A DNA stretch of 64,000 nt. Source: Devosia sp. Root635 (GTDB lineage Bacteria > Pseudomonadota > Alphaproteobacteria > Rhizobiales > Devosiaceae). A program made the position numbers and the translations under genes. The notes beneath the pieces are model-generated. The model was not told the DNA's origin. It saw only the letters and a program-made list of their open reading frames with translations, and made no database searches. Shown piece by piece: positions 11,471 to 63,522 of the stretch. Position 1 is the stretch's first letter. Every line of letters begins with the position of its first letter. The stretch spans positions 249,071 to 313,070 of the forward strand of contig NZ_LMGZ01000012.1 of NCBI RefSeq assembly GCF_001427605.1, given 5' to 3'.

Positions 11471-11484
11471 GATTCACGTGAAAC
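11471..11484. promoter_or_regulatory. parS-like site (GATTCACGTGAAAC)
   Basis: Matches the ParB-binding parS consensus in 13 of 14 central positions and lies just after the cfa stop codon. It is 3 bp from two DnaA boxes and about 45 kb left of the candidate origin. Confidence 0.6.
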
Positions 11485-11486
11485 AC

Positions 11487-11507
11487 TTATCCACAGGCTT
11501 ATGCACA
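11487..11507 (+). promoter_or_regulatory. Two adjacent DnaA boxes
   Basis: A perfect DnaA box TTATCCACA (11487-11495) is followed three bases later by TTATGCACA (11499-11507, one mismatch), both in the same orientation. They fill the gap between the convergent genes cfa and comM beside a parS-like site. This is the best-matching DnaA box pair in the window. Confidence 0.6.
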
Positions 11508-11517
11508 GGGTGCCGGG

Positions 11518-13041
11518 CTACGTCGCACCAAAATTGAGCCGATAGCTCAGGGCCTCGGCAATGTGCGGCCGACCGACACGCTCCACACCGGCCAGGTCGG
11601 CCAGGGTGCGGGCCACCTTGAGCACGCGGTGATAGGCCCGCGCCGAGAGGTTGAAACGCTCGGCCGCCTGCAGCAGCAGCGCCTGGCTTTCCTTGTCGGG
11701 ATTGACCACAGCCTCGATCAGCGTCGAACCGGCCCCCGCATTGGTGAACACGTCCGGCGCGCCATGCTCGGCAAAGCGTTGCCGTTGCCGCTCTCGGGCC
11801 TGCGCGACACGCCGCGCCACGACGGCCGAACTCTCCGCCGCTGCCGAAGGCGTGATCATGTCCGCGGCGGTCACCGCCGGCACGTCGATGCGGATATCGA
11901 TGCGGTCGAGAAAGGGCCCGGAGACGCGGGATTGATAATCGTCGGCGCAGGCCCTGCCGCGGCGGCAGGTGTGGCCGGGCGTGCCGGCAAGACCGCATTT
12001 GCAGGGATTCATCGCGGCGATCAACTGCACGCGGCTCGGATAGCTGACGCGGGCATTGGCGCGGGCAATAACGGTTTCGCCCGCCTCCAGGGGCTGGCGC
12101 AGGCTGTCGAGCACGCTGGGGGCGAATTCGGGCAGTTCGTCGAGGAACAGCACGCCGTTATGGGCCAGGCTCACCTCGCCGGGCCGCACCCGCAGCCCGC
12201 CACCGACCAGAGCCGCCATCGACGCCGAGTGATGCGGCGCGCGGAAAGGACGACGATCGGACAGCGCGCCGCCGGCAAGTTCGCCGGCGATGGACTGGAT
12301 CATCGAGATATCGAGCAGTTCGCGCGGGTCGAGCGGCGGCAGGATGGAGGGCAGGCGCGCTGCCAGCATGGATTTGCCGGCGCCCGGCGGCCCCACCATC
12401 AGCATATTGTGGCCGCCCGCGGCTGCCACTTCCAGCGCGCGCCGCGCCACCTGCTGCCCGCGCACGTCGCTGAGATCGGGCAGCTCGCCCTGCGGCAGGT
12501 ATTTGCGCGGAACCGGACGCGCTGCCAATTGGTGCCCGGTCAGGTGATTGGCCAGCGCCAGCAGGCTTTCCGCCGCGATGATATCGAGATCCTCGCCGGC
12601 CCAGGCGGCCTCGGCGCCGGAGGGTTCGGCGCAGATGAGGCCCAGATCGCGACCCTGCGCCGCGATGGCGGCCGGCAGGATGCCGCCCACATGGGCCAGC
12701 CGTCCATCGAGCCCCAGTTCGCCCAGCGCCAGATAGCCATCGAGCGCGTCCTGCGGAATGGCGCCGATGGCGGCCATGAGGCCGAGCGCGATAGGCAGGT
12801 CGTAGTGACTGCCTTCCTTGGGCAGGTCGGCCGGCGCCAGATTGATGGTGATGCGTTTGGGCGGCAGGCCCAGACCGGACGCGACAAGAGCGGCGCGAAC
12901 ACGCTCCCCCGATTCCTTGACCGCCTTGTCGGGCAAGCCGACCAGGATGAATTGCGGAAAGCCGGGCGCGATCTGCACCTGCACATCGACCGGCACGGCC
13001 TCGATGCCCTGAAACGCCACTGTCGCTACGCGGGTGACCAT
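11518..13041 (-). CDS. comM: YifB/ComM-family AAA+ ATPase (Mg chelatase-like)
   Basis: A 507-aa protein with an N-terminal Lon-protease-like domain (VDVQVQIAPGFPQFILVGLP), an AAA+ core with Walker A GPPGAGKSMLA near residue 220 and Walker B GVLFLDELPEF, and a C-terminal Mg-chelatase-like domain with a zinc-type cluster CKCGLAGTPGHTCRRGRAC. ComM in gamma-proteobacteria is a hexameric helicase promoting branch migration during natural transformation. Presence here does not by itself prove competence. It is convergent with cfa and stands alone. Confidence 0.92.
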   Translation of the reverse strand: MVTRVATVAFQGIEAVPVDVQVQIAPGFPQFILVGLPDKAVKESGERVRAALVASGLGLPPKRITINLAPADLPKEGSHYDLPIALGLMAAIGAIPQDALDGYLALGELGLDGRLAHVGGILPAAIAAQGRDLGLICAEPSGAEAAWAGEDLDIIAAESLLALANHLTGHQLAARPVPRKYLPQGELPDLSDVRGQQVARRALEVAAAGGHNMLMVGPPGAGKSMLAARLPSILPPLDPRELLDISMIQSIAGELAGGALSDRRPFRAPHHSASMAALVGGGLRVRPGEVSLAHNGVLFLDELPEFAPSVLDSLRQPLEAGETVIARANARVSYPSRVQLIAAMNPCKCGLAGTPGHTCRRGRACADDYQSRVSGPFLDRIDIRIDVPAVTAADMITPSAAAESSAVVARRVAQARERQRQRFAEHGAPDVFTNAGAGSTLIEAVVNPDKESQALLLQAAERFNLSARAYHRVLKVARTLADLAGVERVGRPHIAEALSYRLNFGAT

Positions 13042-13222
13042 CGCCCAATGCCCCTAGCCCCACCGCCAATCTAGCAAAGGTCACCCGCCAGAACAAGAAC
13101 GTAAAGCGAACGAAATATGGCCTGTTAACCACGCTGCTTGCCACATGGGTAAACCTAATCCGGCGTTAACCGGCCCATGTTGAATCAAAGGCTCTGTTTC
13201 GTATTGCGTAGAGTTCTGACCG

Positions 13223-14062
13223 ATGAGCGCCAGAAGGCCTTTCCCCTCGTTTGCCGCGATCGCGAAAGGCGCCCTGTCGGCCCTGCTGGCCGCCGCGTTG
13301 GTGGCCTGTTCGTCGGGTGGCGGGCTCTATGGCCCGATCCAGGGCGACAACCGGCCCCATTCGGGCGTGGACCGGGCGCGGACCATGCCGATCCAGGGGA
13401 TCGACGTGGCGCGCTATCAGGAAAACGTGGATTTCCGCACCGCCTTCCAGAGCGGCATGCATTTCGTGTTCATGAAGGCGACCGAGGGCAAGGATTATCT
13501 CGACCCCAATTTCCGCACCAACTGGGTGCGGGCCCGCGAAGCGGGCATGCCGCGGGGCGCCTATCATTTCATGACCTGGTGTTCGCTGGCTTCCGAGCAG
13601 GCGGCATGGTTCGTGCAGAACGTGCCCAATGACTTCGACGCGCTGCCGCCGGTGCTCGATCTCGAATGGAACAACCATTCGAGCTGCACCAACAAGCCGA
13701 GCCGAGCCGACGCGCTGGAAAAGATCCGCGTCATGCTCGAGGCGATGGAGCGCCATACCGGCAAGCTGCCCATCATCTATACCGACATGACCTTCCACCG
13801 CGATGTTCTGGAGGGCGAGTATTTCCCCAATGCCTTCTGGCTGCGCTCCACCGCCGCCGAGCCGCATGAGCGCTATGGCAACCGTGTCTGGACCTTCTGG
13901 CAATGGACGCAGACCGGCGTGGTCCGCGGCGTGCGCGGCGAGGTCGACCGCAACGCCTTCTTCGGCAACCAGAATGACTGGATCACCTTCCTGCTGACGG
14001 GTTGCGATCCGCGCGCCATCGCCTCGCTGGGGCCGGGTGGGCGGTGCCAATCGGCCAAGTAA
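13223..14062 (+). CDS. GH25-family lysozyme-like lipoprotein
   Basis: A 279-aa exported protein. The N-terminal hydrophobic segment ends in a lipobox (LVAC, Cys29), so it is probably anchored to a membrane facing the periplasm. The rest is a glycoside hydrolase family 25 muramidase domain: GIDVARYQ (Asp61), GMHFVFMKATEG, and the catalytic DLEW (Asp146, Glu148), then FWQWTQTG. This predicts cleavage of peptidoglycan glycan strands. It is monocistronic, with about 180 bp of non-coding DNA before it. Role in cell-wall turnover is inferred from the family. Confidence 0.9.
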   Translation: MSARRPFPSFAAIAKGALSALLAAALVACSSGGGLYGPIQGDNRPHSGVDRARTMPIQGIDVARYQENVDFRTAFQSGMHFVFMKATEGKDYLDPNFRTNWVRAREAGMPRGAYHFMTWCSLASEQAAWFVQNVPNDFDALPPVLDLEWNNHSSCTNKPSRADALEKIRVMLEAMERHTGKLPIIYTDMTFHRDVLEGEYFPNAFWLRSTAAEPHERYGNRVWTFWQWTQTGVVRGVRGEVDRNAFFGNQNDWITFLLTGCDPRAIASLGPGGRCQSAK

Positions 14063-14149
14063 TCCGGGGACTTGCCACCGAATCGGCGCGGGTCTAGCCT
14101 TTGCCCATCATTGATCCGGGCCCGTGGGCCCGCAGCGAGGAGGACTGGC

Positions 14150-14281
14150 ATGGCCAAGGGTCAGATGCGCAGCAACAAGGAAGCCAAGAAGCCTAAAAAG
14201 GACAAGCTGGCCGCCGCCAAGCCGGTGACCGGCCTCGGCGCCGGCAGCACCGGCAACACCGGCAACACCGCCAAGAAATAG
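14150..14281 (+). CDS. Small basic protein, 43 aa
   Basis: A short ORF beginning MAKGQMRSNKEAKKPKKDKL and ending in a Gly/Asn/Thr-rich tail with the repeat GNTGNT. A good ribosome-binding site (GCGAGGAGG, 14136-14144) lies 5 bp before the ATG. The N-terminal half is very Lys-rich, as in nucleic-acid-binding or ribosome-associated small proteins. I recall similar short proteins in other Hyphomicrobiales but know of no function. A hairpin that could be a terminator follows. Confidence 0.75.
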   Translation: MAKGQMRSNKEAKKPKKDKLAAAKPVTGLGAGSTGNTGNTAKK

Positions 14282-14305
14282 GCTCGAATTTCGGAATTGA
14301 ACGGG

Positions 14306-14336
14306 GCGGCCGGCGCGAGCTGGCCGCTTTGCTTTG
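14306..14336 (+). terminator. Possible terminator after the 43-aa gene
   Basis: GCGGCC at 14306-14311 pairs with GGCCGC at 14322-14327 across a 10-base loop, followed by TTTGCTTTG. It sits 25 bp after the stop codon. The T-tract is interrupted, so efficiency is uncertain. Confidence 0.4.
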
Positions 14337-14378
14337 TCTGCGCCGAGCCTGCAGCCAGCATGGCCGGGATGAGAAATT

Positions 14379-15014
14379 TCAGGCGCCGCCCAGCAGACCG
14401 CTGGCCTTGACCCCGTCGAAAACGAACTGCACGGCAAGCGCCGCCAGCAGGATGCCAACGACGCGCGATACCACGGCAAGGCCGGTGACGCCGAGCAGGC
14501 GCTGGATGGGAATGGCGACCAGCAGGGTCAGCCAGGCCAGGAACAGGATGACCACGACGGCCACCAGCACGGCCCAGAATTCGAGATCGGTCTTGGTGCC
14601 GGTCGTGAGCAGGATGACGGCGCTGATGGCGCCGGGACCGGCCAATAGCGGCATGGCCAGCGGAAAGACGGCGATATCGTCGCGCTGGCGGGCCTCGACC
14701 TCTTCCTCGTCGGTGGTGCCGGTGCCGCCCGAATGGCGGGCGAACACCATGTCGATGGCGATCAGGAACAGCAACAGCCCACCGGCGGTGCGCAAAGCCG
14801 GGATGGTGATGCCGAAGACTTCGAGGATCGGATTGCCCAACACCCCGAACAGCAGGAGAATCACCCCGGCAATAATGACGCCGCGGGTGGCGAAGGCGAA
14901 GCGCTCCTTGGCGGTATTGTGCTTGGTCAGCGCCGCGAAGATGAAGGCGATATCGGCCACGCCCACCGTGGCGAACAGGGTCGCGAAAGCGACGAAGAAT
15001 GTGGTGGTGGGCAT
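14379..15014 (-). CDS. MarC-family integral membrane protein
   Basis: A 211-aa protein with about six membrane-spanning segments, matching the MarC/UPF0056 family (ATLFATVGVADIAFIFAALT at the N-terminus; FPLAMPLLAGPGAISAVILL in the middle). Normal length for the family. Despite its name MarC was shown not to determine multiple antibiotic resistance, and its transport role is unresolved. It stands alone upstream of a small membrane protein gene on the same strand. Confidence 0.9.
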   Translation of the reverse strand: MPTTTFFVAFATLFATVGVADIAFIFAALTKHNTAKERFAFATRGVIIAGVILLLFGVLGNPILEVFGITIPALRTAGGLLLFLIAIDMVFARHSGGTGTTDEEEVEARQRDDIAVFPLAMPLLAGPGAISAVILLTTGTKTDLEFWAVLVAVVVILFLAWLTLLVAIPIQRLLGVTGLAVVSRVVGILLAALAVQFVFDGVKASGLLGGA

Positions 15015-15103
15015 GGTGCGAGATCCCCTCTGGCCTTGGCTAGACCTAGCCGGTTCAGGCGCGCTTGCCCAGCCTTGCCGTTATGCGGCTTTGTCGAACG
15101 GGG

Positions 15104-15484
15104 CTAGAGCATCCTGGCGCCGGCGGCCAGGCCGGCCAGCGACAGCATGGCCAGCGCGTCGATCCAGCCGCGAGAACGGATGAGCCAGGCCGGATGCAGC
15201 TTGCTGGTGGGCAGGAAGCGCAACAGCCAGACTGCGCCGTAGAGCACCCAGACGGCAAAGAAGGCGACCATGAGCAGGTCGGCCCAGCCGGAGCGGTTGA
15301 AGCCGACCATGATGCGGGTCACACCGGCGCCGGCCAGGATGGACAGCAGATAGGCGCCCAGCACAATGGCTGATTTCTGCCAATAGGCGGCGGTCAGGCG
15401 CGGATCGACCGGCAGGTTGCGGCGCCAGCGGCGGAACAGGAACCAGCCAACCGCGCCGAGGATCGCCGTGACCAGCAGATACAT
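15104..15484 (-). CDS. Small integral membrane protein of unknown function
   Basis: A 126-aa protein with about four hydrophobic segments: 1-17 (LLVTAILGAVGWFLF), around 40-55, 67-90 and 108-125. The stretch between segments one and two is basic. I recognise no family. Its start codon overlaps the gshB stop by one base, so it is the last gene of the rsmI-yraN-gshB transcription unit and is probably translationally coupled to gshB. Confidence 0.7.
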   Translation of the reverse strand: MYLLVTAILGAVGWFLFRRWRRNLPVDPRLTAAYWQKSAIVLGAYLLSILAGAGVTRIMVGFNRSGWADLLMVAFFAVWVLYGAVWLLRFLPTSKLHPAWLIRSRGWIDALAMLSLAGLAAGARML

Positions 15485-16434
15485 CAGGCGCGGCGCTTTT
15501 CGATGGCGTCCCAGATCATCACGGCAATGTCTGGCCCGCCGAAGCGCTTGATCTCGCGGATACCGGTGGGCGAGGTGACATTGATCTCGGTGAGGTAGTC
15601 GCCGATGACGTCGATGCCGACGAAGATCATGCCGCGCTCTTTCAGCGCGGGGGCAATGGTGGCGCAGATTTCCTTTTCGCGGTCGGTCAGCGGCGAGAGC
15701 TCCGGACGGCCGCCGACATGCATGTTGCTCCGCGCCTCGCCTTCGGCGGGGATGCGGTTGAGGCCGGCCACCGGCTCGCCGTCGATGATGATGATGCGCT
15801 TGTCGCCCTTCCTGACATCCGGCAGGTATTTCTGGATCATGAAGGGTTCGCGGTAGTTGTTCTCGAACAGTTCGAGCAGGCTCACCAGGTTGTGGTCGCC
15901 TTCCTGGATGAAGAACACGCCGGCCCCGCCATTGCCGTAGAGCGGCTTGACGATGATGTTGCCGTGCTCCTTGCGGAAATCGTGGATCATCGCCCGGTCG
16001 CGCGTCACCAGGGTCGGCGGCATCAGCTCGGGGAAGTCGGTGACGAGGATTTTTTCCGGCGCATTGCGCACGGCGGCGGGCGGATTGACCACCAGGGTTT
16101 TCGGATGCAGGCGCTCGAGCAGGTGGGTGAGCGTGATATAGTTCATGTCGAAGGGCGGATCCTGGCGCATATGGACCACGTCCTGGGTCGACAGATCGAC
16201 CCGGCTTTCCTCGCCGAGGATGAAATGCTCGCCCTTGGGCCTGTCAAACACTTCGATGGGTGCGGCCAGTGCCGAGACGACATTGCCGCGCAGAGCCAGC
16301 GTATCGGGCGTGTAATGCAGCAATTCATGGCCGCGCGCCTGGGCTTCCAGCATCATGGCGAAGGTGGAATCGCCGCGCGGATTGATCGATGCGACATGGT
16401 CCATCTGGACCGCGACTTTGAGTTTTTTGGCCAT
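15484..16434 (-). CDS. gshB: Glutathione synthetase
   Basis: Joins gamma-glutamylcysteine and glycine with ATP to make glutathione. The 316-aa ATP-grasp protein starts [20 protein letters not shown] and contains the family blocks [12 protein letters not shown], the glycine-rich loop [14 protein letters not shown] and [13 protein letters not shown], the last supplying Mg-binding residues near the C-terminus. It lies 7 bp after yraN in the unit rsmI-yraN-gshB-small membrane protein. Confidence 0.96.
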
Positions 16435-16441
16435 TTAGGTC

Positions 16442-16834
16442 TCAGGAGGAAGCGTCGAAGGCGTTGATGACATGGCGCGGCCATCGGCCGGGTGCAAGGA
16501 AAATTACGTCGAAGCGGAGGTTCGTGCCCGCCTCGGCGGGGTGGCGGGCCAGCCAGTATTGCGCGGCGCGGGTAATGCGCGAGCGATTGACCGCTTGCAG
16601 CGCCTCGGCTTCGACGGCAGCCTTGCTACGCGCCTTGACCTCGATGAAAACAGTGGTGCCGAAGTGGGTGGCGATGAGATCGATCTCGCCGACCGGCGTT
16701 TTGCAGCGGCGCTGCACGACACGGTAGAGCTTGAGGCGCAGGAACCAGGCGGCCAGCGCCTCGCCGCGATGGCCGCCCAGGTAAGCCTCTATGCGGGCTC
16801 TACTTTTCGGCTTTGATGGCGAGGGCGGCATCAT
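16442..16834 (-). CDS. YraN-family (UPF0102) nuclease-like protein
   Basis: A 130-aa protein of the YraN family, related to restriction-endonuclease-like Holliday junction folds. The core motif GEIDLIATHFGTTVFIEVKA has the Glu-Asp...Glu-x-Lys arrangement of the PD-(D/E)XK nucleases. Its 5' end overlaps the 3' end of rsmI by 35 bp, so the two are translationally linked; a later start would reduce the overlap but remove N-terminal residues. The neighbourhood of rsmI and an LpoA-like gene matches the yraL-yraM-yraN cluster of E. coli. Confidence 0.87.
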   Translation of the reverse strand: MMPPSPSKPKSRARIEAYLGGHRGEALAAWFLRLKLYRVVQRRCKTPVGEIDLIATHFGTTVFIEVKARSKAAVEAEALQAVNRSRITRAAQYWLARHPAEAGTNLRFDVIFLAPGRWPRHVINAFDASS

Positions 16835-17687
16835 AGACTTCCTTGCGCTTGAGCCCGAAATTTTTGGTCACTTCGTCGACGGCCGCCCGCAGTGGTTGGT
16901 CCTCCATCGCTGCAGTTAGCGCGGCCTGCCAATCGGCGGCATCAGGCGCGGCGGGGGCATCGGCACCGGCCACGACGATGACGGCTTCGCCCTTGGTTTC
17001 GGTCCCGGCGAAGGTGGCGGCGAGCTCGGGCAGCGTGCCGCGATGGACGCGTTCGAAGCGTTTGGTGAGTTCCAGCGCCACCGCGGCCTGTCTGCTGCCC
17101 CAGAGTTCGGCCATGGCGGCCAGCGTATCGTCGAGCCGCCGGGGGCTTTCGTAGAAGACCATGGTTTCACGTGAATCGCTCAGCGCCTTCAAGGCATTGG
17201 CGCGGGCGCCCGCCTTGGGCGGCAGGAAGCCGTGAAAAGCGAAGGCGTCGGTGGGCAGGCCCGCGACAACCAAAGCCGAGAGCAGGGCCGAAGCGCCGGG
17301 AATGGGGAAGATTGGCTGGTTCGCCTCGGCCATGGCGCGAATCAAGGGGAAGCCGGGGTCTGATAGCAGCGGGGTGCCGGCATCGGAGATCAGGGCGATA
17401 GCCTGGCCGGCGGCGACGCGGGCGACGATGTCGTCGGCCTTGGCGCGCTCATTGTGTTCATGCAGCGCCACGCGGCGAGCCTTGATGCCGTAATGATCGA
17501 GCAGGCGGGCCGACATTCTTGTGTCTTCGCAAAGGATTACCGAGGCGGCGGCCAGGGTTTCGAGGGCGCGGATGGTGATGTCGCGCAGGTTGCCGATCGG
17601 GGTGGCGACGACATAAAGGCCGGGCGAAAGCGGGGGCGCCGTGAAGGCGGAGCCGGCGATGAAATAGCCTTGCGTGGTGTCGGTCAT
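16800..17687 (-). CDS. rsmI: 16S rRNA (cytidine 1402-2'-O)-methyltransferase
   Basis: Methylates the ribose of C1402 in the decoding centre of 16S rRNA. The 295-aa protein has the tetrapyrrole-methylase-like SAM fold: LYVVATPIGNLRDITIRALE near the N-terminus, CEDTRMSARLL, ALISDAGTPLLSDPG and FPIPGASALLSALVVAGL. The ATG at 17685-17687 gives a normal N-terminus, and upstream codons in the open frame are not family-like. A parS-like site lies inside the gene, encoding Asp-Ser-Arg-Glu-Thr. The gene is divergent from the LpoA-like gene. Confidence 0.93.
   Translation of the reverse strand: MTDTTQGYFIAGSAFTAPPLSPGLYVVATPIGNLRDITIRALETLAAASVILCEDTRMSARLLDHYGIKARRVALHEHNERAKADDIVARVAAGQAIALISDAGTPLLSDPGFPLIRAMAEANQPIFPIPGASALLSALVVAGLPTDAFAFHGFLPPKAGARANALKALSDSRETMVFYESPRRLDDTLAAMAELWGSRQAAVALELTKRFERVHRGTLPELAATFAGTETKGEAVIVVAGADAPAAPDAADWQAALTAAMEDQPLRAAVDEVTKNFGLKRKEVYDAALAIKAEK
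17164..17177. promoter_or_regulatory. parS-like site inside rsmI
   Basis: GTTTCACGTGAATC, the reverse complement of the GATTCACGTGAAAC variant seen elsewhere. It lies in the rsmI coding region and encodes Asp-Ser-Arg-Glu-Thr on the minus strand. Confidence 0.5.
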
Positions 17688-17762
17688 GCTTTCACGGGGT
17701 TGAGAATTGGTTAGCACTTTGCTGCCAATTGTTAACAGACTGCTAGCGTTGAGAGGCCCGAC

Positions 17763-18977: not shown

Positions 18978-19023
18978 CTCCCTGCATCGAGGCCGTAAGG
19001 TGGGCGCCTAAAGGAGCCCGCTC

Positions 19024-19830: not shown

Positions 19831-19840
19831 GGGGCTCTTT

Positions 19841-19982
19841 TCCTTCTCCCCTTGAGGGTGCTCCCCACGCTTCTGTGGCTCCCCTCTCACCCCAGATGAA
19901 GCCTCGACACCCCCTCCCCAGCTCTGCCAAGGCCCTGCGGGCCGGGCGGCGCTACCCTCCCCTCAAGGGGGAGGGTGGGCCA
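19841..19982. repeat. Palindromic intergenic repeat
   Basis: Left arm CCTTCTCCCCTTGAGGGTGC and right arm ACCCTCCCCTCAAGGGGGAG, with a GC-rich centre. It belongs to the CTCCCCTTGAGGGGGAG family and fills the space between the convergent zinc-ribbon MBL gene and hemW. Confidence 0.7.
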
Positions 19983-20022
19983 GAGTCGAGGATATCGCGC
20001 CCGGCTGACATCAGGTTTGAGG

Positions 20023-21177: not shown

Positions 21178-21198
21178 TGGTGGCACCCGATCTCTGGC

Positions 21199-21300
21199 TC
21201 CCTCCCCCCTTGAGGGGGAGGGTTGGGGTGGGGGGTAGCGCAGTGATCCACTGACGGACCCCCACCCTCGGTCCCTCCCCTCAAGGGGGAGGGAGGCGCA
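21199..21300. repeat. Palindromic repeat between rdgB and hemW
   Basis: Arms CCTCCCCCCTTGAGGGGGAG and TCCCTCCCCTCAAGGGGGAG, each almost perfectly self-complementary and separated by about 60 bp with GGGGTGGGGGG/CCCCCACCC pairing. It interrupts what is otherwise a co-directional rph-rdgB-hemW arrangement. Confidence 0.75.
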
Positions 21301-21330
21301 GGAACCAAAGCATCCGATGATATGGATACC

Positions 21331-21975: not shown

Positions 21976-22034
21976 TTGGCACCACCTTCCAACGCCCGCC
22001 GGATGTCTTGCCAGATGGCGCAGTTGCGCTCGGA

Positions 22035-24875: not shown

Positions 24876-24889
24876 GTTTCACGTGAATC
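24876..24889. promoter_or_regulatory. parS-like site downstream of grpE
   Basis: GTTTCACGTGAATC in the intergenic region between grpE and pncA, between two terminator-like hairpins. Confidence 0.55.
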
Positions 24890-30694: not shown

Positions 30695-30850
30695 CGCAGT
30701 CGTCTCCCTCCCCCTTGCGGGGAGGGATCAAGGGTGGGGGTTCCCACGCACCGGATGCGCGGAAAGATATCCCCACCCTGCTCGATCACGGACTTGGCTG
30801 ACGCTAAGTCCTATCTCGCTTCCCTCCCCTCAAGGGGGAGGGTGGATCCG
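30695..30850. repeat. Palindromic repeat downstream of dnaK, with the 44-bp module at 30695-30738
   Basis: Begins with CGCAGTCGTCTCCCTCCCCC, the reverse complement of a 44-bp module also found at 35772, 42954 and 50284. It ends in TCCCTCCCCTCAAGGGGGAG. The centre contains GCTAAGTCCTATCTCGC, which recurs inverted in the 42838-42997 element. Most of the 360-bp gap before the hydrolase-like gene is this repeat; the remainder holds the dnaK terminator, a parS-like site and a short leader. Confidence 0.8.
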
Positions 30851-30887: not shown

Positions 30888-30901
30888 GTTTCACGTGAAT
30901 C
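30888..30901. promoter_or_regulatory. parS-like site between dnaK and the hydrolase-like gene
   Basis: GTTTCACGTGAATC, intergenic, about 87 bp before the ATG of the hydrolase-like gene. Confidence 0.55.
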
Positions 30902-39387: not shown

Positions 39388-40278
39388 ATGCGAACCATGG
39401 GTGTTCCGATGAACCAGATCACACATATGACAACCGCGACGGACTACGACACCATCCGCGCTGCCATCCAGTATCTCTCGCAGAACGGGCCCGACGTTGC
39501 CGATCTCGGCCGCTTCGCCCGCACGCTGGGGATGACCGAGCGGCAGCTGACCGACCTGTTCCGCCGCTGGTGCGGGCTCAGCCCCAAGAGCTTCGCGCAG
39601 GCAGTGGCGCTCGATCATGCCAAGAGCCTGTTGCGCGCCAGGGAGAGTGTGCTCGACACCACGTATGAGGTGGGCCTCTCCTCCACCTCGCGGCTGCATG
39701 ACCTGTTCGTCGCGTACGAAGCCATGCCCCCCGGTATTTTCCGCGCCGGCGGCGAGGGCATCGACATGGTCTGGGGGGCGGCGCCGTCGCCCTTCGGCAT
39801 GGCGGTGGTGACCGCCACCGAATACGGCATGTCGGGGCTGGGCTTTGCCGATGCGGAGATGAGCGTGGAACAGGCCTTCGCGGACCTGGCCAATCGCTGG
39901 CCCAATGCGCGCTTCACCCGCGACGATGCCCGCGTTGCCCCGATGATTGCCCAGGCCTTCGATCCGGCCCGCTGGTCGCCCGACCATCCGGTGCGCGTGG
40001 TACTCATCGGCACCGATTTCGAGGTCAAGGTGTGGGAGACTTTGCTCAAGATCCCCTGTGGCCAGGCCACCACCTATCAGAATGTCGCCAACCAGATCGG
40101 CCGGCCAACCGCAGCCCGCGCCGTAGGCGCCGCGGTGGGCAAGAACCCGATTTCGTTCGTCGTGCCGTGCCATCGCGTGGTGGGCACGTCAGGCGCACTG
40201 ACCGGCTATCACTGGGGCGTGCCGCGCAAGCGGGCTATCCTGGGCTGGGAAGCCGGGGTGATCTCGGCCGCGCATTAG
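39388..40278 (+). CDS. Ada-like protein: AraC helix-turn-helix fused to O6-methylguanine-DNA methyltransferase
   Basis: A 296-aa protein combining an AraC-type DNA-binding domain (residues 40-115: GRFARTLGMTERQLTDLFRR, STSRLHDLFVAYEAMPPGIF) with a methyltransferase domain (VWETLLKIPCGQATTYQNVA and the active-site motif FVVPCHRVVGTSG with its acceptor Cys). It removes methyl groups from O6-methylguanine by suicide transfer. The N-terminal zinc/methylphosphotriester domain of E. coli Ada is absent. The exact start is uncertain; an ATG at 39409 is also possible. The stop codon overlaps a parS-like site. Confidence 0.9.
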   Translation: MRTMGVPMNQITHMTTATDYDTIRAAIQYLSQNGPDVADLGRFARTLGMTERQLTDLFRRWCGLSPKSFAQAVALDHAKSLLRARESVLDTTYEVGLSSTSRLHDLFVAYEAMPPGIFRAGGEGIDMVWGAAPSPFGMAVVTATEYGMSGLGFADAEMSVEQAFADLANRWPNARFTRDDARVAPMIAQAFDPARWSPDHPVRVVLIGTDFEVKVWETLLKIPCGQATTYQNVANQIGRPTAARAVGAAVGKNPISFVVPCHRVVGTSGALTGYHWGVPRKRAILGWEAGVISAAH

Positions 40279-40291
40279 TTTCACGTGAATC
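40278..40291. promoter_or_regulatory. parS-like site at the end of the Ada-like gene
   Basis: GTTTCACGTGAATC; its first base is the last base of the TAG stop codon. Confidence 0.55.
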
Positions 40292-45229: not shown

Positions 45230-45957
45230 GCTGCGGCTTTCAGAAGCGCGAGTGCTTCACGTGAATCAATCCGCCCGTCGTAAAGCGCCCGGCCGGAAAT
45301 GGCGCCTTCCAGCACCTGATACTCGGGACGCGTCATGCGCTCGATATCGGCCATGGAGGCCAGGCCCCCCGAGGCGATGACCGGGATGGACGTGGTGCGG
45401 GCCAGCTCCAGCGTCGAGTCCCAGTTGATGCCGGCCAGCACGCCATCGCGGTCGATATCGGTATAGATGATGGCCGCGACGCCAGCGCCTTCGAAGCGCC
45501 TGGCCAGTTCGATGACCGACAGTTCCGACGTCTCGGCCCAGCCTTCCACCGCCACCATCCCTCCACGCGCATCGATGCCGACAGCGACCTGCCCCGGCCA
45601 CCGGCTTGCGGCTTCCTTGACCAGGGCCGGATCGCGCACCGCCACCGTGCCGAGGATGACGCGGCTGAGGCCCTTGCTCAGCCAGCTCTCGATATGGGCC
45701 AGGGTGCGAATGCCGCCGCCGAGCTGCACGGGGAAATTCACCGCCTTGAGGATGGAATCCACTGCCGCGCCATTGACGCTTTCGCCGGCAAAGGCGCCGT
45801 TGAGGTCGACGACGTGGAGATACTGGAACCCCTGGTCCTCGAAGCTCTTTGCCTGCGCCGCCGGATCGTCGTTGAACACGGTGGCCTGATCCATGTCGCC
45901 CAGCTTGAGGCGCACGCATTGGCCGTCCTTGAGGTCGATGGCAGGAAAGAGGATCAC
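45226..45957 (-). CDS. hisA: ProFAR isomerase (phosphoribosylformimino-AICAR-P isomerase)
   Basis: Fourth step of histidine synthesis. The 243-aa barrel begins [20 protein letters not shown] with the catalytic Asp, then [16 protein letters not shown], and the second catalytic Asp in [14 protein letters not shown]. The start is GTG at 45955-45957, overlapping the hisH stop (GTGA); the open frame runs further upstream through hisH and is not meaningful. A parS-like motif near the 3' end encodes Asp-Ser-Arg-Glu-Ala. Confidence 0.96.
45254..45267. promoter_or_regulatory. parS-like motif inside hisA
   Basis: GCTTCACGTGAATC: the 10-bp core is intact but one further base departs from the common variant. 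It lies in the hisA coding region. Confidence 0.4.
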
Positions 45958-53268: not shown

Positions 53269-53280
53269 GAAATCCTGTAG

Positions 53281-53372: not shown

Positions 53373-53380
53373 AATCCTCA

Positions 53381-56137: not shown

Positions 56138-56232
56138 GGGGACGATGTTTTCCACACTGTCATCCCCAGCTCAAGCCCGACCTGTGACTATGACTCATGG
56201 TTTTGGCCGCGCCTCCGACTTGTTCGACCTGG

Positions 56233-56248
56233 TTACCGAAACATTAAC
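56233..56248 (+). promoter_or_regulatory. CtrA-type site 1 in the origin region
   Basis: TTACCGAAACATTAAC: one mismatch from TTAA-N7-TTAAC. A GANTC site (56254-56258) lies 5 bp away. Confidence 0.5.
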
Positions 56249-56376
56249 ATTTGGACTCCGCACCCGTCTGGCGGCGGGCTCTGGATAGGTCTGGGGATAA
56301 CCCGCCGGTGGACAATGCGGGCCACCAACCGGTTTTGCACAGCGGGGTGCGAATCATTGACTCGGGAGTCGCCGCG

Positions 56377-56392
56377 TTAAGGCTTGATTAAC
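56377..56392 (+). promoter_or_regulatory. CtrA-type site 2 in the origin region
   Basis: TTAAGGCTTGATTAAC: full match to TTAA-N7-TTAAC. Three GANTC sites (56351, 56359 and 56366) lie just upstream, two of them forming the palindrome GACTCGGGAGTC. Confidence 0.65.
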
Positions 56393-56433
56393 CATTGAGG
56401 CGGCGGCACGGCCGGAATGGTCCACAGGCGATG

Positions 56434-56449
56434 TTAACACCGGGTTAAC
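56434..56449 (+). promoter_or_regulatory. CtrA-type site 3 in the origin region
   Basis: TTAACACCGGGTTAAC: full match to TTAA-N7-TTAAC and itself palindromic. A DnaA-box-like TGGTCCACA (56418-56426) lies 7 bp upstream. Confidence 0.65.
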
Positions 56450-56578
56450 CATAGGCCTGCGCCTTTGTGCCGCCATGCGGGCGATTGTGGATGGCGTTGA
56501 ATTAGCCCAAAACACCGCCATGATAATACTGATACGAAGTCAGAAAGACTCTTTAGGGATTTTGAAGGGAAGGGTGAC

Positions 56579-57607: not shown

Positions 57608-57636
57608 CACAACCGAGCTGTTGAGGAGTTCGAAAA

Positions 57637-58065
57637 GTGTATGAATGGGTCAAGGCGCTGCATGTCATCTCCGTCATCGCCTGGATGGCGGGGATGATGT
57701 ATCTGCCGCGCCTCTTCGTCTATCACGCCCAGTCCGCCGTCGGCTCGGAAAAGTCCGAGACCTTCAAGGTCATGGAGCGCAAGCTCTATCGCGGCATCAT
57801 CACCCCGGCCATGATCGCCACCTGGATTTTCGGGCTGTGGCTGGCCTTCGGCTTCGGCATCGTCGATTTTTCCATGGGCTGGATGTGGCTCAAGGCGGCA
57901 ATGGTCCTGATCCTATCAGGCGTGCATGGCTGGTATGGCGGATTGTTGCGCAAGTTCCAGAACGACCAGAATAGTCGGCCGCACACGTTCTACCGCGCCA
58001 TCAACGAAATCCCCTTCGTCATCGCCGTGGTCATCGTCATCGCGGTGATCGTCAAGCCGTTCTGA
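57637..58065 (+). CDS. hemJ: Protoporphyrinogen oxidase HemJ
   Basis: A haem-containing membrane enzyme that oxidises protoporphyrinogen IX. The 142-aa protein has about four membrane segments and the conserved YEWVKALHVISVIAWMAGMM with His9, the proposed haem ligand, KLYRGIITPAMIATWIFGLW, and WMWLKAAMVLILSGVHGWYG. Start is GTG at 57637. It follows hemE by 29 bp, so both probably share a transcript. Confidence 0.93.
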   Translation: MYEWVKALHVISVIAWMAGMMYLPRLFVYHAQSAVGSEKSETFKVMERKLYRGIITPAMIATWIFGLWLAFGFGIVDFSMGWMWLKAAMVLILSGVHGWYGGLLRKFQNDQNSRPHTFYRAINEIPFVIAVVIVIAVIVKPF

Positions 58066-58087
58066 GGAGGTCCTGAACCAACCACAG

Positions 58088-58115
58088 CGTCATTCCCGCC
58101 TGTGCGGGAATGACG
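58088..58115. repeat. Perfect 12-bp hairpin in the rho leader
   Basis: CGTCATTCCCGC, loop CTGT, GCGGGAATGACG. No T-tract follows. It belongs to the CGTCAT...ATGACG group of short palindromes in this genome. The rest of the 293-bp hemJ-rho gap holds a parS-like site and no evident gene. Confidence 0.75.
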
Positions 58116-58177
58116 TTGCAGACGGGGTTGGGATATTTATGCGGGAAGCTACCTTGCCATTCGGGCATAGCCGGGAA

Positions 58178-58191
58178 GTTTCACGTGAATC
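58178..58191. promoter_or_regulatory. parS-like site upstream of rho
   Basis: GTTTCACGTGAATC, intergenic, 168 bp before the rho start and about 1.6 kb right of the candidate origin. Confidence 0.6.
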
Positions 58192-58358
58192 CCATCCCCT
58201 GCGACGGTTTCGTTCTTGAAACTGCCGCAAGATCGCGCTACATGCCTTGCCAACGCATCCCAATCATAGCTGACCGGCCCCGGTCGCTGCGCGGTGCCTA
58301 CCCCTCCCAGATTTATCGCCTTCGACGATTACCGTTTCCCAATAGGGTCTCCCGCTAC

Positions 58359-59624
58359 ATGCAGAATATGAAGCTCAGCGAGCTCAAGGCCAAATCCCCG
58401 GCCGAACTCCTGGTGTTCGCTGAAGAACACGAGGTCGAGAACGCCTCGACCATGCGCAAACAGGAATTGATGTTTGCCATCCTCAAGGAGCTTGCCGCAC
58501 AGGAAGTCGACATTACCGGCGAAGGCGTCGTCGAAGTCCTCCCCGACGGTTTCGGTTTCCTGCGCTCCCCGGACGCCAACTACCTTCCGGGCCCCGACGA
58601 CATTTATGTCAGCCCGTCCCAGATACGCCGCTTCGGTCTGCGGACCGGCGATACGGTTGAAGGCCAGATAAGGTCTCCCAAGGATGGCGAGCGCTATTTC
58701 GCGCTGCTGAAGGTCAATACCATCAATTTCGAAGATCCCGAGGCGGTGCGCCACAAGGTCAACTTCGACAACCTCACCCCGCTTTATCCGGAAGAACGGC
58801 TCCGCATGGAGCTGCCCGATCCGACCATCAAGGATCGCTCCGCCCGCCTGCTCGATCTCGTTGCGCCGCTCGGCAAGGGCCAGCGCGCTTTGATTGTTGC
58901 GCCGCCGCGTACCGGTAAGACTGTACTGTTGCAGAATATTGCACAATCGATCGCTACCAATCACCCCGAATGTTATCTCATCGTGCTGCTGATCGACGAG
59001 CGGCCCGAGGAAGTGACGGACATGCAGCGCTCGGTGCGCGGCGAAGTCATTTCCTCGACCTTCGACGAGCCGGCCAGCCGCCACGTCCAGGTCGCCGAAA
59101 TGGTGATCGAAAAGGCCAAGCGCCTGGTCGAGCACAAGCGCGACGTGGTCATCCTGCTCGATTCCATCACCCGCCTCGGCCGCGCCTACAACACCGTGGT
59201 TCCGAGCTCCGGCAAGGTTCTCACGGGCGGCGTCGACGCCAATGCGCTGCAGCGGCCGAAGCGCTTCTTCGGCGCCGCGCGCAATATCGAGGATGGCGGT
59301 TCGCTGACCATCATTTCCACGGCGCTGATCGATACCGGCTCGCGCATGGACGAAGTGATCTTCGAAGAGTTCAAGGGTACCGGTAACTCGGAAATCATCC
59401 TTGACCGCAAGGTCGCCGACAAGCGCATCTTCCCGGCGCTCGACATCACCAAGTCGGGCACCCGCAAGGAAGAACTGCTGGTCGAAGCCGACATTCTCAA
59501 GAAGATGTATGTGCTGCGCCGCATCCTCAACCCGATGGGGACGATCGACGCCATGGAATTCCTGGTCGACAAGGTTCGCCAGACCAAGACGAATTCCGAC
59601 TTCTTCGATTCGATGAATACCTAA
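58359..59624 (+). CDS. rho: Transcription termination factor Rho
   Basis: The hexameric RNA helicase that ends transcription. The 421-aa protein has the N-terminal RNA-binding domain ([40 protein letters not shown]), the Walker [21 protein letters not shown] near residue 175, the Q-loop and [11 protein letters not shown], and the C-terminal [19 protein letters not shown]. The ATG at 58359 fits the family N-terminus; the frame stays open about 250 bp upstream but is not Rho-like. A long leader with a hairpin could hold autoregulation. Confidence 0.97.
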
Positions 59625-59639
59625 GCGCCGCGCATAATC

Positions 59640-60929
59640 ATGCGGACGGGCGATACAATCGTGGCGCTGTCCTCCGGGGCACCGCCATCCGGTGTGGCGG
59701 TCATCCGCCTCTCCGGGCCCGATGTGTCGGACATTCTCCTCGATATTGCTGGCTCCATCCCCGAGCCGCGGCGCCTGACGTTGCGGCCCATCGGCCGCGA
59801 TTCTCTGCTCGATCGGGGCCTTGTCGCCTGGTTCCCGGCGCCGCACAGTTTTACCGGCGAGGACTGCGCCGAATTGCAGGTGCATGGCTCGCCCGCCGGC
59901 GTTCGTGCCATCATCAAGCTCATCACCTCAAAGGGTGCGCGCCTGGCCGAGGCCGGCGAATTTACCCGCCGCGCCTTTGAAAACGGCAAGCTCGATCTGG
60001 TCGAAATCGAAGGTCTCGGCGACCTGCTGGAGGCCGAAACCGAGAACCAGCGCCGCCAGGCCCTGGCCCGGTTCGAAGGTGGCCTGAGCCAACGCATCGA
60101 TAGCTGGCGCGACCAGTTGCTCGACCTGCGGGCCGAAATCGAAGCCCGGCTCGACTTTTCCGACGAAGGCGACGTGGCCGACGCCCTGCCCGCCAGCTTC
60201 GGCGACAGCATCGCCGCCCTGCGCGCCGATATCGGCACCGCCCTGGCCTCGCTGGAGCATGGCCGCATCATCCGCGAAGGCATCCGTGTCGCCCTGGCCG
60301 GTCCACCCAATGCCGGAAAATCCAGCCTGCTCAATGCCTTGGCCAAATCCGACATTGCCATCGTCACCGACGAAGCCGGCACCACGCGCGATGTGCGCGA
60401 AGTCCCGCTCGATATCGGTGGCCAGCTCTATATCCTGCTGGACCTGGCCGGCCTGCGTGACACCGACAGCAAGGCTGAAGCCGAAGGCGTCCGCCGCGCC
60501 CGCCAGGCCATTGAGCAGGCCGATATCGTCCTGTGGCTGCACGCGCCGGATATTGCCGATGCCATGGCCGGGCAAGGCGACCGGATCATCAGGGTCGGCA
60601 CCAAGCGCGATCTGGGTGCGGTGCCCGGCATGGATGTCGAGGTCTCCGCCCAATCGGGCGCTGGCCTTGCCGACCTCTTGCAGCGCATCGAGGCCATCGG
60701 CGAGACATTGTCCACCGGCGAGCCCGCCGTGCTGAGCCGCGAGCGGGATCGTCTGGCACTGGAAAGCGCCACCGAAGCCCTGAACGCGGCCGCACGGCAA
60801 CTGGCCGTGCCCGAACTGGCTGCCGAAAGCCTGCGCATCGCCTCACAATCGCTTGAGCGACTGTTGGGGCGCCTGGATGCCGAGCGTGTGCTGGACCGAC
60901 TGTTTGCCAGCTTCTGCATCGGCAAATGA
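59640..60929 (+). CDS. mnmE: tRNA modification GTPase MnmE
   Basis: With MnmG it makes the carboxymethylaminomethyl modification of wobble uridine in tRNA. The 429-aa protein has the N-terminal folate-binding domain (GDTIVALSSGAPPSGVAVIR), a helical domain, an inserted G domain (VALAGPPNAGKSSLLNALAK; DEAGTTRDV; DLAGLRDT), and the C-terminal CIGK motif with the catalytic Cys. The stop codon overlaps a parS-like site. Confidence 0.97.
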   Translation: MRTGDTIVALSSGAPPSGVAVIRLSGPDVSDILLDIAGSIPEPRRLTLRPIGRDSLLDRGLVAWFPAPHSFTGEDCAELQVHGSPAGVRAIIKLITSKGARLAEAGEFTRRAFENGKLDLVEIEGLGDLLEAETENQRRQALARFEGGLSQRIDSWRDQLLDLRAEIEARLDFSDEGDVADALPASFGDSIAALRADIGTALASLEHGRIIREGIRVALAGPPNAGKSSLLNALAKSDIAIVTDEAGTTRDVREVPLDIGGQLYILLDLAGLRDTDSKAEAEGVRRARQAIEQADIVLWLHAPDIADAMAGQGDRIIRVGTKRDLGAVPGMDVEVSAQSGAGLADLLQRIEAIGETLSTGEPAVLSRERDRLALESATEALNAAARQLAVPELAAESLRIASQSLERLLGRLDAERVLDRLFASFCIGK

Positions 60930-60941
60930 TTCACGTGAAAC
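60928..60941. promoter_or_regulatory. parS-like site at the mnmE stop
   Basis: GATTCACGTGAAAC; its first two bases are the last two of the mnmE TGA stop. Confidence 0.65.
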
Positions 60942-60964
60942 ACGCCCACCACGTGCCCGGAATT

Positions 60965-60978
60965 GATTCACGTGAAAC
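60965..60978. promoter_or_regulatory. parS-like site between mnmE and mnmG
   Basis: GATTCACGTGAAAC, 37 bp from the previous copy and in the same orientation; about 35 bp before mnmG. Confidence 0.68.
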
Positions 60979-61012
60979 ATTGGCCTATTGAGACGGCCTT
61001 CGGAGACAGGTC

Positions 61013-62875
61013 ATGAGCGACTATGCCGTTATCGTCGTTGGAGGTGGTCACGCCGGCTGTGAAGCCGCGGCCGCTTCGGCACGCCTGGGCGCTCCGACGG
61101 CGCTGGTGACGCACAAATTCGCCACCATCGGCGAGATGAGCTGCAATCCCGCCATTGGCGGCCTGGGCAAGGGCCATCTGGTGCGCGAGATCGATGCGCT
61201 GGATGGTCTGATGGGTCGCGTTGCCGACGCGGCCGGCATCCAGTTCCGCGTGCTCAACCGCCGCAAAGGCCCCGCGGTACGCGGTCCCCGCGCCCAGGCC
61301 GACCGCAAGCTCTATCGCCAGGCCATGCAGGCCGCCATCACCGCGCAGCCCAATCTCGACGTGATCGAGGGCGAGGTCGACGATATCGAAGTGAGCAATG
61401 GTGCAGTCAGCGGTGTCGTGCTGCTCGATGGCCGCCGCATCGGCACCAAGGCCGTGGTACTGACCACCGGCACCTTCCTGCGCGGGTTGATTCATCGCGG
61501 CGAGGAAACCACGCCGGCAGGGCGCTTGGGGGAAAAGCCGGTGCTGGGGCTCTCCACGCGCCTCGAAAATCTCGGGCTGCAACTCGGCCGCCTCAAGACC
61601 GGCACCCCGGCACGGCTCGATGGCACCAGCATCGATTACGCCCGGCTCGAAGCGCAGCCGGGCGACGATGTGCCCGAACCATTCTCCGCCCTGACCGCGG
61701 CCATCACCACGCCGCAGGTTTCCTGCCACATTACGCGCACGACTGCCGAGACGCATCGGATCATCTCGGAAAACCTGCATCGCTCGGCCATGTATGGCGG
61801 CCGCATCCAGAGCCGCGGGCCGCGCTATTGCCCGTCTATCGAGGACAAGGTGGTGCGCTTCGCCGATCGCGACAGCCACCAGATTTTCCTTGAGCCGGAA
61901 GGGCTTGACGACAGGACGGTCTATCCCAACGGCGTTTCCACCTCGCTGCCGGCCGAGGTGCAGGAAGCCTTTCTGCGCACCATGCCGGGGCTGGAAAATG
62001 TACTTATCATCCGGCCGGGCTATGCCATCGAATATGACCATGTCGATCCGCGCGAGCTGCGGCCGACCCTCGAAGTGAAGCGCCAGCCTGGGCTATATCT
62101 GGCCGGGCAGATCAATGGCACGACCGGCTATGAAGAGGCCGGGGCGCAGGGCCTGCTGGCCGGCGCCAATGCTGCCCTCGCCGCTGCCGGCAGCGACCCG
62201 CTGATCCTGTCGCGGACCGAAAGCTATCTTGGCGTCATGGTGGACGACCTGGTGACGCGCGGCGTGTCCGAACCCTACCGCATGTTCACCTCGCGCGCCG
62301 AATTCCGCTTGCATCTGCGCGCCGACAATGCCGATCAGCGCTTGACGCCGCTGGGGGTGGAAAGGGGCCTGGTCGGGGGCGAACGCCGCGAATTGTTTGC
62401 CGGCAAGGCTGCGGCGCTCACCCATGGCCGCATCCTGCTGAACAGCCTTACCGCCTCGCCCAATGCGGCGCGCAAGGCTGGCATTGCCGTCAATGAAGAT
62501 GGCAAGCTGCGCTCGGCCTTCGACCTGTTGTCCTACCCCGACGTGACAGCGGCCGACACCGGCCGACTCTGGCCGGAAGTACTTGAAATCGCTCCGGAAA
62601 TTATCGATCAATTGGTTGTCGATGCGCAATATGCGGTTTATCTCGACCGCCAGCGCAGTGATATCGACGCGGTGCGTCGTGACGAGCAGAAGCCGATCCC
62701 CGATCATCTCGATTATGCGGCGATTCCCGGCCTGTCGATGGAGCTGCGCCAGAAGCTGCAGCAATATCGGCCGCAGACCATCGCCCAGGCACTGGCCATG
62801 GATGGCATGACGCCGGCTGCGGTGACGCTGCTGCTCGCCGTTATCCGGCGCGGCGATCTGCGTCAGGCCGGCTGA
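61013..62875 (+). CDS. mnmG: tRNA uridine modification enzyme MnmG (GidA)
   Basis: FAD-dependent partner of MnmE in wobble-uridine modification. The 620-aa protein has the FAD motif [20 protein letters not shown] at the N-terminus, [57 protein letters not shown], and the C-terminal tRNA-binding helical domain ([20 protein letters not shown]). Its stop codon shares one base with the rsmG ATG. Two parS-like sites precede it. Confidence 0.97.
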
Positions 62876-63522
62876 TGGCGGCCAGCGACGTCATTGCCCC
62901 TTATGCCGCGCAGTTCACCCGGCCACTTGCCGATGTCGTGGCCGATCTGGAATCCTATGCTCAGCTTCTCAGAAAGTGGCAGGCGGTACAGAATCTTGTT
63001 TCACGTGAAACACTGGATGCTGTCTGGTCCCGGCATTTTGCCGACAGTTTGCAGGTGCTGCCCCTGCTGAAGCCGGGCGATCATGCCTTTCTCGATCTGG
63101 GCAGCGGTGGTGGCCTGCCGGCTTTGCCGCTGGCCATTGCGCTCAAGAGCCCGAATCACCATTTCACTCTTATCGAGCCCAATGGGCGGAAGGTCAGTTT
63201 CCTGCGCACGGTGGCGCGGGAATTGGGGCTTGTCGTTGCCGTGGAAGGCCGGCGCAGCGACCAGATTGATTCACGTGAAACACCGCCGCCTGATGTCATA
63301 ACCTCCCGCGCGCTGGCCGGCCTGCCGGTGCTTTGCGGCTGGATGGAACCGTTTTTCGCCCCGAAAACACGCGCCATCCTGCATAAGGGCAGGGAACATG
63401 TTGAAGAACTGGCGGAAGCGGTTCCGCAATGGGACTTTAACGTGGTAGTAACCAGGAGTGACACCGATGCAGAAGGTGTTCTGCTCACGCTTACAGATTT
63501 GTGTGCGAAAACAGTGAGTTAG
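62875..63522 (+). CDS. rsmG: 16S rRNA (guanine 527-N7)-methyltransferase
   Basis: Methylates G527 in the 530 loop of 16S rRNA. The 215-aa protein has YAQLLRKWQAVQNLVSRETL, WSRHFADSLQVLPLL, and the SAM motif FLDLGSGGGLPALPLAIALK. The segment Val-Ser-Arg-Glu-Thr near residue 42 is encoded by a perfect parS, and a second parS-like site encodes Asp-Ser-Arg-Glu-Thr near residue 134. It sits 27 bp before parA, and gidA-gidB-parA is the usual origin-proximal order. Confidence 0.95.
   Translation: MAASDVIAPYAAQFTRPLADVVADLESYAQLLRKWQAVQNLVSRETLDAVWSRHFADSLQVLPLLKPGDHAFLDLGSGGGLPALPLAIALKSPNHHFTLIEPNGRKVSFLRTVARELGLVVAVEGRRSDQIDSRETPPPDVITSRALAGLPVLCGWMEPFFAPKTRAILHKGREHVEELAEAVPQWDFNVVVTRSDTDAEGVLLTLTDLCAKTVS
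62997..63012. promoter_or_regulatory. Perfect parS site inside rsmG
   Basis: TGTTTCACGTGAAACA, a full 16-bp palindrome identical to the classical parS consensus. It lies 540 bp before parA. Confidence 0.9.
63268..63281. promoter_or_regulatory. parS-like site inside rsmG (3' part)
   Basis: GATTCACGTGAAAC, 256 bp downstream of the perfect parS and 270 bp before parA. Confidence 0.7.

Follow-up and report, generated by a model that had tools for sequence, protein, structure and literature searches.

Why do most parS-like sites in one chromosomal region of Devosia sp. Root635 carry the same asymmetric sequence, and why are they spread so widely? The window analysed here, a stretch of 64,000 nucleotides, contains eleven exact copies of the core TTCACGTGAA, starting at 11473, 17166, 24878, 30890, 40280, 45256, 58180, 60930, 60967, 63000 and 63270. 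An initial annotation of this DNA gave positions two to three bases below these core starts, as it listed the starts of 14- or 16-mers. Its claim that eleven cores are far above chance is borne out by a mean of 0 in 100 dinucleotide shuffles.

Distribution of the parS sites

The window sites differ from the parS consensus TGTTTCACGTGAAACA at 0–3 of 16 positions. A search of the whole genome (3,816,678 bases) found 12 copies of the TTCACGTGAA core, every one within 54 kb (C12:260543–314440), and none elsewhere in those 3,816,678 bases; the reversed-reading pattern, used as a control, gave 0 matches genome-wide. An even genome-wide spread, the outcome that the initial annotation had named as contradicting its reading, is thus excluded. 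The 12th site lies at window coordinate 65361, 1.4 kb past the end of the window and directly after parB.

Identification of the sites as parS is upheld by the parA-like and parB genes that adjoin them and by the canonical ParB. The latter matches 6t1f (E 1.6e-75), scores above the cut-off of TIGR00180 and has a canonical recognition helix; the ParA-like ATPase encoded upstream of parB scores below curated cut-offs. Judged from sequence, the 12 sites over 54 kb are the chromosomal centromere (parS) of a Devosia species, at which ParB is predicted to bind. The system resembles ParABS of Caulobacter crescentus in its 16-bp consensus, in having several sites beside parAB near the origin, and in its canonical ParB. 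According to PMC5815017, however, Caulobacter has 7 parS in one cluster ~8 kb from ori, whereas Devosia has 12 over 54 kb, 10 of them with a GANTC half.

The width of the array had been called unusual. Wide arrays recur in the Devosia genomes listed and exceed only moderately the usual spread, which PMC8357415 gives as 5–40 kb. The 54 kb seen here are characteristic of Devosia and go a little beyond that range. The array was also said to lie around the origin, which is likely from synteny: the probable oriC (56156–56578, no strand assigned) is placed between a Maf-like gene and hemE, where two CtrA-type boxes (TTAA-N7-TTAA) are found at 56377 and 56434. Skew does not pin the origin, being uninformative in the contig analysed here. 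In one complete Devosia genome the cumulative GC skew (300–840 kb scanned) has its minimum at ~620 kb, ~65 kb from the CtrA-type box of that genome (684860); its KOPS-like motifs change sign broadly.

Palindromic and GANTC-containing sites

As initially described, the window holds one perfect palindrome, GTTTCACGTGAAAC (core at 63000), and nine copies of a single asymmetric variant, GATTCACGTGAAAC, in either orientation; the remaining site (45256) is GCTTCACGTGAATC. Only 2 of the 12 sites in the genome are perfect palindromes (63000 and 65361), and both are without GANTC. The other 10 have an altered half. Known parS sets include imperfect sites, so an altered half does not disqualify these 10 as parS. 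The change is a single one in one ParB half-site, GTTTC to GATTC (GTTTCAC to GATTCAC), and it creates GANTC. The asymmetric variant is, by its sequence, a half-site turned into a predicted CcrM target, an explanation absent from the initial annotation, which did not mention GANTC. GANTC occurs in 10 of 12 sites but in just 1.3% of 14-bp windows across the 214 kb around them, which favours this hybrid model. Only 1 of the 21 possible single changes of the half-site yields GANTC, and the register of the overlap is identical throughout.

The hybrid sites occupy diverse positions, given here with the strand on which GATTC is read. Three lie between convergent gene ends: 11471–11484 (+; GATTCACGTGAAAC) between cfa and comM (yifB), 24876–24889 (−) between grpE and a nicotinamidase gene, and 40278–40291 (−) between genes for an Ada-like methyltransferase and phosphoglycerate mutase. 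Two DnaA-like boxes, TTATCCACA (11487) and TTATGCACA (11499), occupy 11487–11507 (+), 2 bp past the first of these, with the same spacing in relatives. The sites at 17164–17177 (−), within the minus-strand gene rsmI, and 63268–63281 (+), within rsmG, both encode D-S-R-E-T. The site at 30888–30901 (−) lies downstream of dnaK and either coincides with the 5′ end of the following ORF or precedes it. Upstream of hisF, GCTTCACGTGAATC (45254–45267, −) has an altered canonical half and an intact GANTC half. The site at 58178–58191 (−) is upstream of the rho domain and inside a mechanically called ORF, in which similarity to Rho starts 87 residues in. That at 60928–60941 (+) overlaps the mnmE stop codon TGA, and its GA is coding-constrained; that at 60965–60978 (+) is in free intergenic DNA upstream of mnmG. 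The palindromic site at 62998–63011 (no strand assigned) is within rsmG.

Two further features were set aside. A GAATC just upstream of the palindromic rsmG site (57 of 59 loci) encodes Gln-Asn-Leu and was dropped as evidence; AAT is often used for Asn here (141 AAT vs 97 AAC in 20 window genes). Nothing was concluded from site orientation. Most left-arm hybrids point one way, and the 11471 family and the mnmE–rsmG sites point the other, but few orientation events are independent because homologous sites keep their orientation by descent.

Conservation of the GANTC half in relatives

In the families upstream of rho and at the free site upstream of mnmG, the GANTC half was intact in every copy found with at most two mismatches to the palindrome (109 of 109), and the canonical half was altered in 7; as in all our conservation counts, the copies share ancestry and are not independent events. 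If ParB binding alone were acting, the canonical half would be expected to be the better kept, and the opposite was seen. Conservation is lower outside the motif at both sites, strikingly so at rho. Copies at the mnmE stop (50 of the 113 mnmE–mnmG copies) were left out of the main count because the GA there belongs to the TGA stop; GANTC was present in all 50. The non-hybrid parS after parB provided an internal control, and its second half drifts (n=49: canonical 20, GTTCC 10, GATCC 6, GTTGC 5, GCTCC 4, GCTTC 2 and GATTC 2).

Left-arm and distal sites from 22 genomes, those fetched being the matches listed for 21 genomes, had GANTC in 105 of 106 cases and the palindrome in 1 of 106; 105 of the 106 fit a search pattern fixing just the first 12 bases. 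This count was kept separate from those of the named 20-kb loci, and some distal sites are probably in both. Single-change halves at 62 Devosiaceae loci were GATTC in 217 cases, GCTTC in 2 and GGTTC in 0. The third base of the half-site was altered at 34 sites in 249 genomes, giving 19 GACTC, 1 GAATC, 1 GAGTC, 4 GTCTC and 9 others, with GANTC retained more often than not; 15 of the 19 GACTC sites are away from the mnmE stop.

Some observations weigh against the hybrid model. At the second rsmG site GANTC was lost in 2 of 51 copies, and 9 of the 55 loci covering the rho stretch had no site there within two mismatches. Coding constraint also acts at several sites (mnmE stop, rsmG and rsmI). Taken together, these comparisons give good support to the view that GANTC as such is under selection at the hybrid sites.

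The genome also encodes the putative cognate methyltransferase. One ORF (L101) is the CcrM gene; its best solved relative is 6pbd, CcrM (E 2.1e-160), and its RAMA domain scores over the cut-off. CcrM is present in most Alphaproteobacteria according to PMC3973325. We found a CcrM-type RAMA domain in 240 of 249 Hyphomicrobiales genomes, so that CcrM presence offers no contrast by which to predict the hybrid. The exact hybrid 14-mer occurs in 115 of these 249 genomes. Two findings speak against the hybrid model: the 14-mer is missing from 134 of these genomes, so that possession of CcrM does not always go with the hybrid, and its frequency is near chance in other Alphaproteobacteria (0 of 89 and 5 of 187).

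ParB loading and CcrM methylation

Residue 184 of ParB is Lys or Arg in this genome, at 62 of 62 Devosiaceae loci and at 15 of 16 matched other loci (2 further loci were unmatched). By the account in PMC7383237, Caulobacter ParB is promiscuous when residue 184 is Lys (K184), and in Noc the lysine equivalent by numbering touches the phosphate of base 2. Base 2 of the half-site is the base altered in the Devosia hybrids. ParB might simply tolerate A at this position. In that case the hybrids would be weaker parS sites, serving to tune affinity or SMC flux, and GANTC would be a by-product in which methylation plays no part. Lys or Arg 184 could loosen recognition there, single half-sites bind ParB in Pseudomonas (as described in PMC10419367), and GATCC halves without GANTC (6 of 49, after parB) indicate that ParB accepts A at base 2 by itself. 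However, the drift after parB reveals several other accepted halves, whereas GANTC is retained in all the rho and free mnmG copies counted; few halves have C or G at base 2, and GACTC, which takes two changes, outnumbers one-change GTCTC. We consider tolerance as the whole explanation unlikely.

Information could also run from ParB to DNA methylation, if ParB shielded GANTC and left it persistently unmethylated, much as MucR protects GANTC against CcrM in Caulobacter. Such protection would be short-lived, given that ParB moves off parS as a sliding clamp; we know of no reader at these places, and three of the sites lie between convergent gene ends. Such occlusion is improbable. The rho- and mnmG-upstream sites could sit in promoters, as expected if GANTC were a GcrA/CcrM promoter element merely overlapping parS, but the hybrids between convergent genes and inside rsmI and rsmG are not placed as GcrA-dependent promoters would be, and the constant register also counts against this. 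We regard this explanation as very improbable. So too, for the width of the array, is the already disfavoured view that rearrangement widened an ordinary parS cluster: left-arm sites do shift by kilobases between species, but the rsmI, rho, mnmG and rsmG sites recur at constant locations throughout the genus.

The reading that we prefer, and hold to be probable, is that ParB loading at the ten hybrid sites is modulated by CcrM methylation and, through it, by replication state, the two palindromes being methylation-blind. ParB with Lys or Arg 184 would tolerate the altered GATTC half. Passage of the fork would leave the ten sites hemimethylated, a state lasting until the action of CcrM late in the cycle. 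N6-methyladenine in the major groove may alter ParB nucleation at the hybrids, in either direction. How many ParB/SMC loading sites are active would then track replication state, while the two palindromes would supply a constant baseline. A more far-reaching version is offered tentatively: a methylation-gated centromere, in which replication would hemimethylate ten of twelve parS at once and switch loading of ParB clamps, and so of SMC, until reset by CcrM, might serve Hyphomicrobiales as an epigenetic clock that links segregation with replication.

Related arrangements exist. Devosia shares GANTC sites and a CcrM gene with the CcrM/GANTC control of other Alphaproteobacteria, whose targets are, to our knowledge, promoters and replication genes, whereas in the present case GANTC forms part of the ParB site itself. 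GANTC is also close to partition sites in pAMI4 and at ori2 of A. tumefaciens (repABC), but these are RepB systems of secondary replicons, and in the available text of PMC9040568 and PMC11514494 GANTC is described as nearby (~500 bp off in pAMI4) and is not said to lie inside the partition site. In Pseudomonas, one intact half-site is enough for ParB contact, as is predicted for the Devosia hybrids; the Pseudomonas heptamers are scattered genome-wide, with no methylation link mentioned in the available text of PMC10419367, whereas the Devosia sites are clustered and bear GANTC. No paper with GANTC inside a chromosomal parS was found among the literature matches listed, the literal sequence having been searched in one orientation.

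If methylation were irrelevant, the conserved GANTC would still call for another explanation. The present results suggest that methylation may tune chromosome segregation in this Devosia. If so, the persistence of asymmetric parS variants would be explained, and CcrM would gain a possible role beyond transcription. How bacteria time segregation with respect to replication has yet to be settled, and centromere sites that bear the mark of their own replication would couple the two processes directly.

The parS array and the presumed origin

The window contains 11 exact copies of the core TTCACGTGAA, where none is expected. This agrees with the count in the initial annotation, whose coordinates for existing sites were off by 2-3 bases. 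Site-by-site reading bore out its division into one perfect palindrome and nine copies of one asymmetric variant, GATTCACGTGAAAC; the remaining site is GCTTCACGTGAATC. A whole-genome search for TTCACGTGAA, which the annotation had proposed, found 12 sites, all confined to 54 kb on one contig. There is no even spread, and the 3.8 Mb genome has no copy outside this stretch. The twelfth site, located after parB, is a second palindrome.

At its right end the window has the genes hemE, hemJ, rho, mnmE, mnmG and rsmG, followed beyond its edge by a parA-like gene and then parB. The encoded ParB shares 96% identity with the ParB of Devosia sp. Root436; among solved structures it comes nearest to Caulobacter ParB. 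The interval between a Maf-like gene and hemE contains two of only four TTAA-N7-TTAA pairs in the surrounding 214 kb, which we take to mark oriC, as in Caulobacter. These pairs and the Caulobacter analogy make the annotation's placement of the array around the origin likely, but the precise position of oriC found no confirmation in the skew data. Six sites lie on either side of the presumed origin. The neighbouring genes, the likeness of ParB and the presumed oriC therefore make it almost certain that the 12 sites are parS. Wide arrays also occur in other Devosia genomes, some exceeding 80 kb among the matches listed. A weaker parS-like sequence at 8199-8214, with 4 mismatches in 16 and GAATC at its end, was left out of the count.

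Conservation of GANTC in hybrid sites

In hybrid sites one half-site is changed from GTTTC to GATTC. Of 21 single changes in the half-site, no other creates GANTC, the recognition site of CcrM. A CcrM gene is present in the genome. Base composition predicts 703 GANTC in the 214 kb, where 273 occur; the motif is held by 1.3% of 14-bp windows there but by 10 of the 12 parS sites. In the literature covered, which was incomplete, no description was found of parS sites with a built-in GANTC. One paper mentions 'GANTCs at the parS locus' of Caulobacter as a control; constitutive methylases caused no significant change in their methylation (PMC5172544). GANTC is known near repABC parS, but is not described as internal to it.

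The comparison of homologous sites took in 62 Devosiaceae loci and our own, and counted those within two mismatches of the palindrome; the counts cover related sequences, and some genomes are drafts. The rho stretch has a site in 46 of 55 covering loci (none within two mismatches in the other 9), and all 46 contain GANTC, as do all 63 copies (54 loci) of the free site upstream of mnmG. Among these 109 copies the canonical half is altered in seven (six GTTCC, one GCTTC), whereas the other half never lost GANTC. The canonical half is presumably the stronger ParB contact, so with ParB binding as the sole constraint one would expect it to be conserved better than the other. The post-parB site is non-hybrid in most loci and palindromic in 20 of 49 copies; its altered forms (GTTCC, GATCC, GTTGC, GCTCC, GCTTC, and GATTC in 2 of 49) show what ParB tolerates where GANTC is not kept. 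In rsmG the first site is palindromic in 59/59 copies and the second has GANTC in 49/51. Copies at the mnmE stop (GANTC in 50/50) were excluded from the evidence because they are coding-constrained. GANTC is present in 33 of 44 distal-right sites and absent from 11. A farther set, comprising 100 left-arm or distal sites from 21 genomes (among the matches listed) and six of our own, has GANTC in 105/106 and a palindrome in 1/106. These sites occupy several unrelated genomic places, of which the largest single-linkage group merges several. In G028, a complete relative Devosia genome, the apparent counterpart of the site at 11471 is GATTCACGTGGAAC, with the canonical half altered and GANTC retained. 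The pattern argues that selection probably acts on GANTC.

At 11471-11507 a hybrid parS is followed 1-2 bp on by a DnaA-like box. This near-fixed spacing recurs at 13 of 17 same-orientation sites, namely our own and those in loci L106, L112, L114, L123, L131, L138, L144, L163, L169, L176, L179 and L189; L186 has the second box only, and L140, L151 and L153 neither. The adjoining box is a perfect TTATCCACA in 9 sites, ours being the sole one in the 214 kb, and a second box often lies 12 bp farther. One guess is that the composite is a DnaA titration or timing element. The coding parS sites in rsmI and rsmG (17164-17177, 62998-63011 and 63268-63281) share a reading frame and the peptide D/V-S-R-E-T. 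GGGNAGGG also recurs in the 214 kb paired with its complement at a distance of 13 bp (for example at 21273-21294 and 30706-30843); these pairs are perhaps hairpins or extragenic repeats.

Distribution beyond Devosia

In a phylum sample, exact GTTTCACGTGAATC was found, by our count, in 23 of 46 genomes of the order, ours among them, in none of the 89 that belong to other alphaproteobacterial orders, and, with one site each, in 7 of 263 from other classes. An order sample gave 115/249 genomes and 51/111 genera. A class sample gave 5/187 other-order genomes; in two of these a palindromic parS lies no more than half a kilobase away. By plain arithmetic a 4-Mb genome should contain about 0.03 copies of a given 14-mer, which puts the figures outside the order near chance level, except for these two cases. 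Palindromic parS is common across the class (78/96). C or G at the hybrid's changed base occurs at 11 sites in 7/190 class genomes. The third base of the half-site is changed at 34 sites in 26/249 genomes, a genome-wide count that includes some chance matches: 19 GACTC, 1 GAATC and 1 GAGTC hold GANTC, and 4 GTCTC and 9 others do not. Four of the 19 GACTC sites overlap the mnmE stop and 15 lie elsewhere. These counts and flanks indicate that GANTC is in most cases conserved as a whole. In four loci from other Hyphomicrobiales (L084, L088, L089, L091) the mnmE-mnmG gap contains three tandem parS, two bearing GANTC and then a palindrome.

ParB residue 184 and a possible role for methylation

Residue 184 (Caulobacter numbering) is Ala in Caulobacter ParB but Lys or Arg in our protein, in 62/62 Devosiaceae and in 15 of 16 matched other loci, with two more unmatched. 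Lys/Arg here, which the ParB/Noc literature treats as permissive, is nearly fixed among the loci examined (L018:360-1235 and the ParB of L021-L100). A ParB/Noc study saw the A184K variant bind to several DNA sites; by numbering, the residue corresponds to a Noc lysine that contacts the base 2 phosphate (PMC7383237). The base altered in the hybrid half-site is base 2. By this analogy Lys/Arg 184 would let ParB accept the hybrid, but alone would give no preference for A over C or G. K184 also occurs in hybrid-free loci, such as L086 and L094, and is therefore not sufficient.

The array, the hybrid sequence and its conservation are observed, and ParB and CcrM are both encoded. We infer that CcrM would methylate the hybrid sites, that initiation would make them hemimethylated, and that their closeness to the origin would keep them in this state the longest. 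m6A within a ParB half-site could then change nucleation, or else ParB could block CcrM, while the two palindromes would supply a constant level. That methylation modulates ParB is a possibility that we put forward tentatively.
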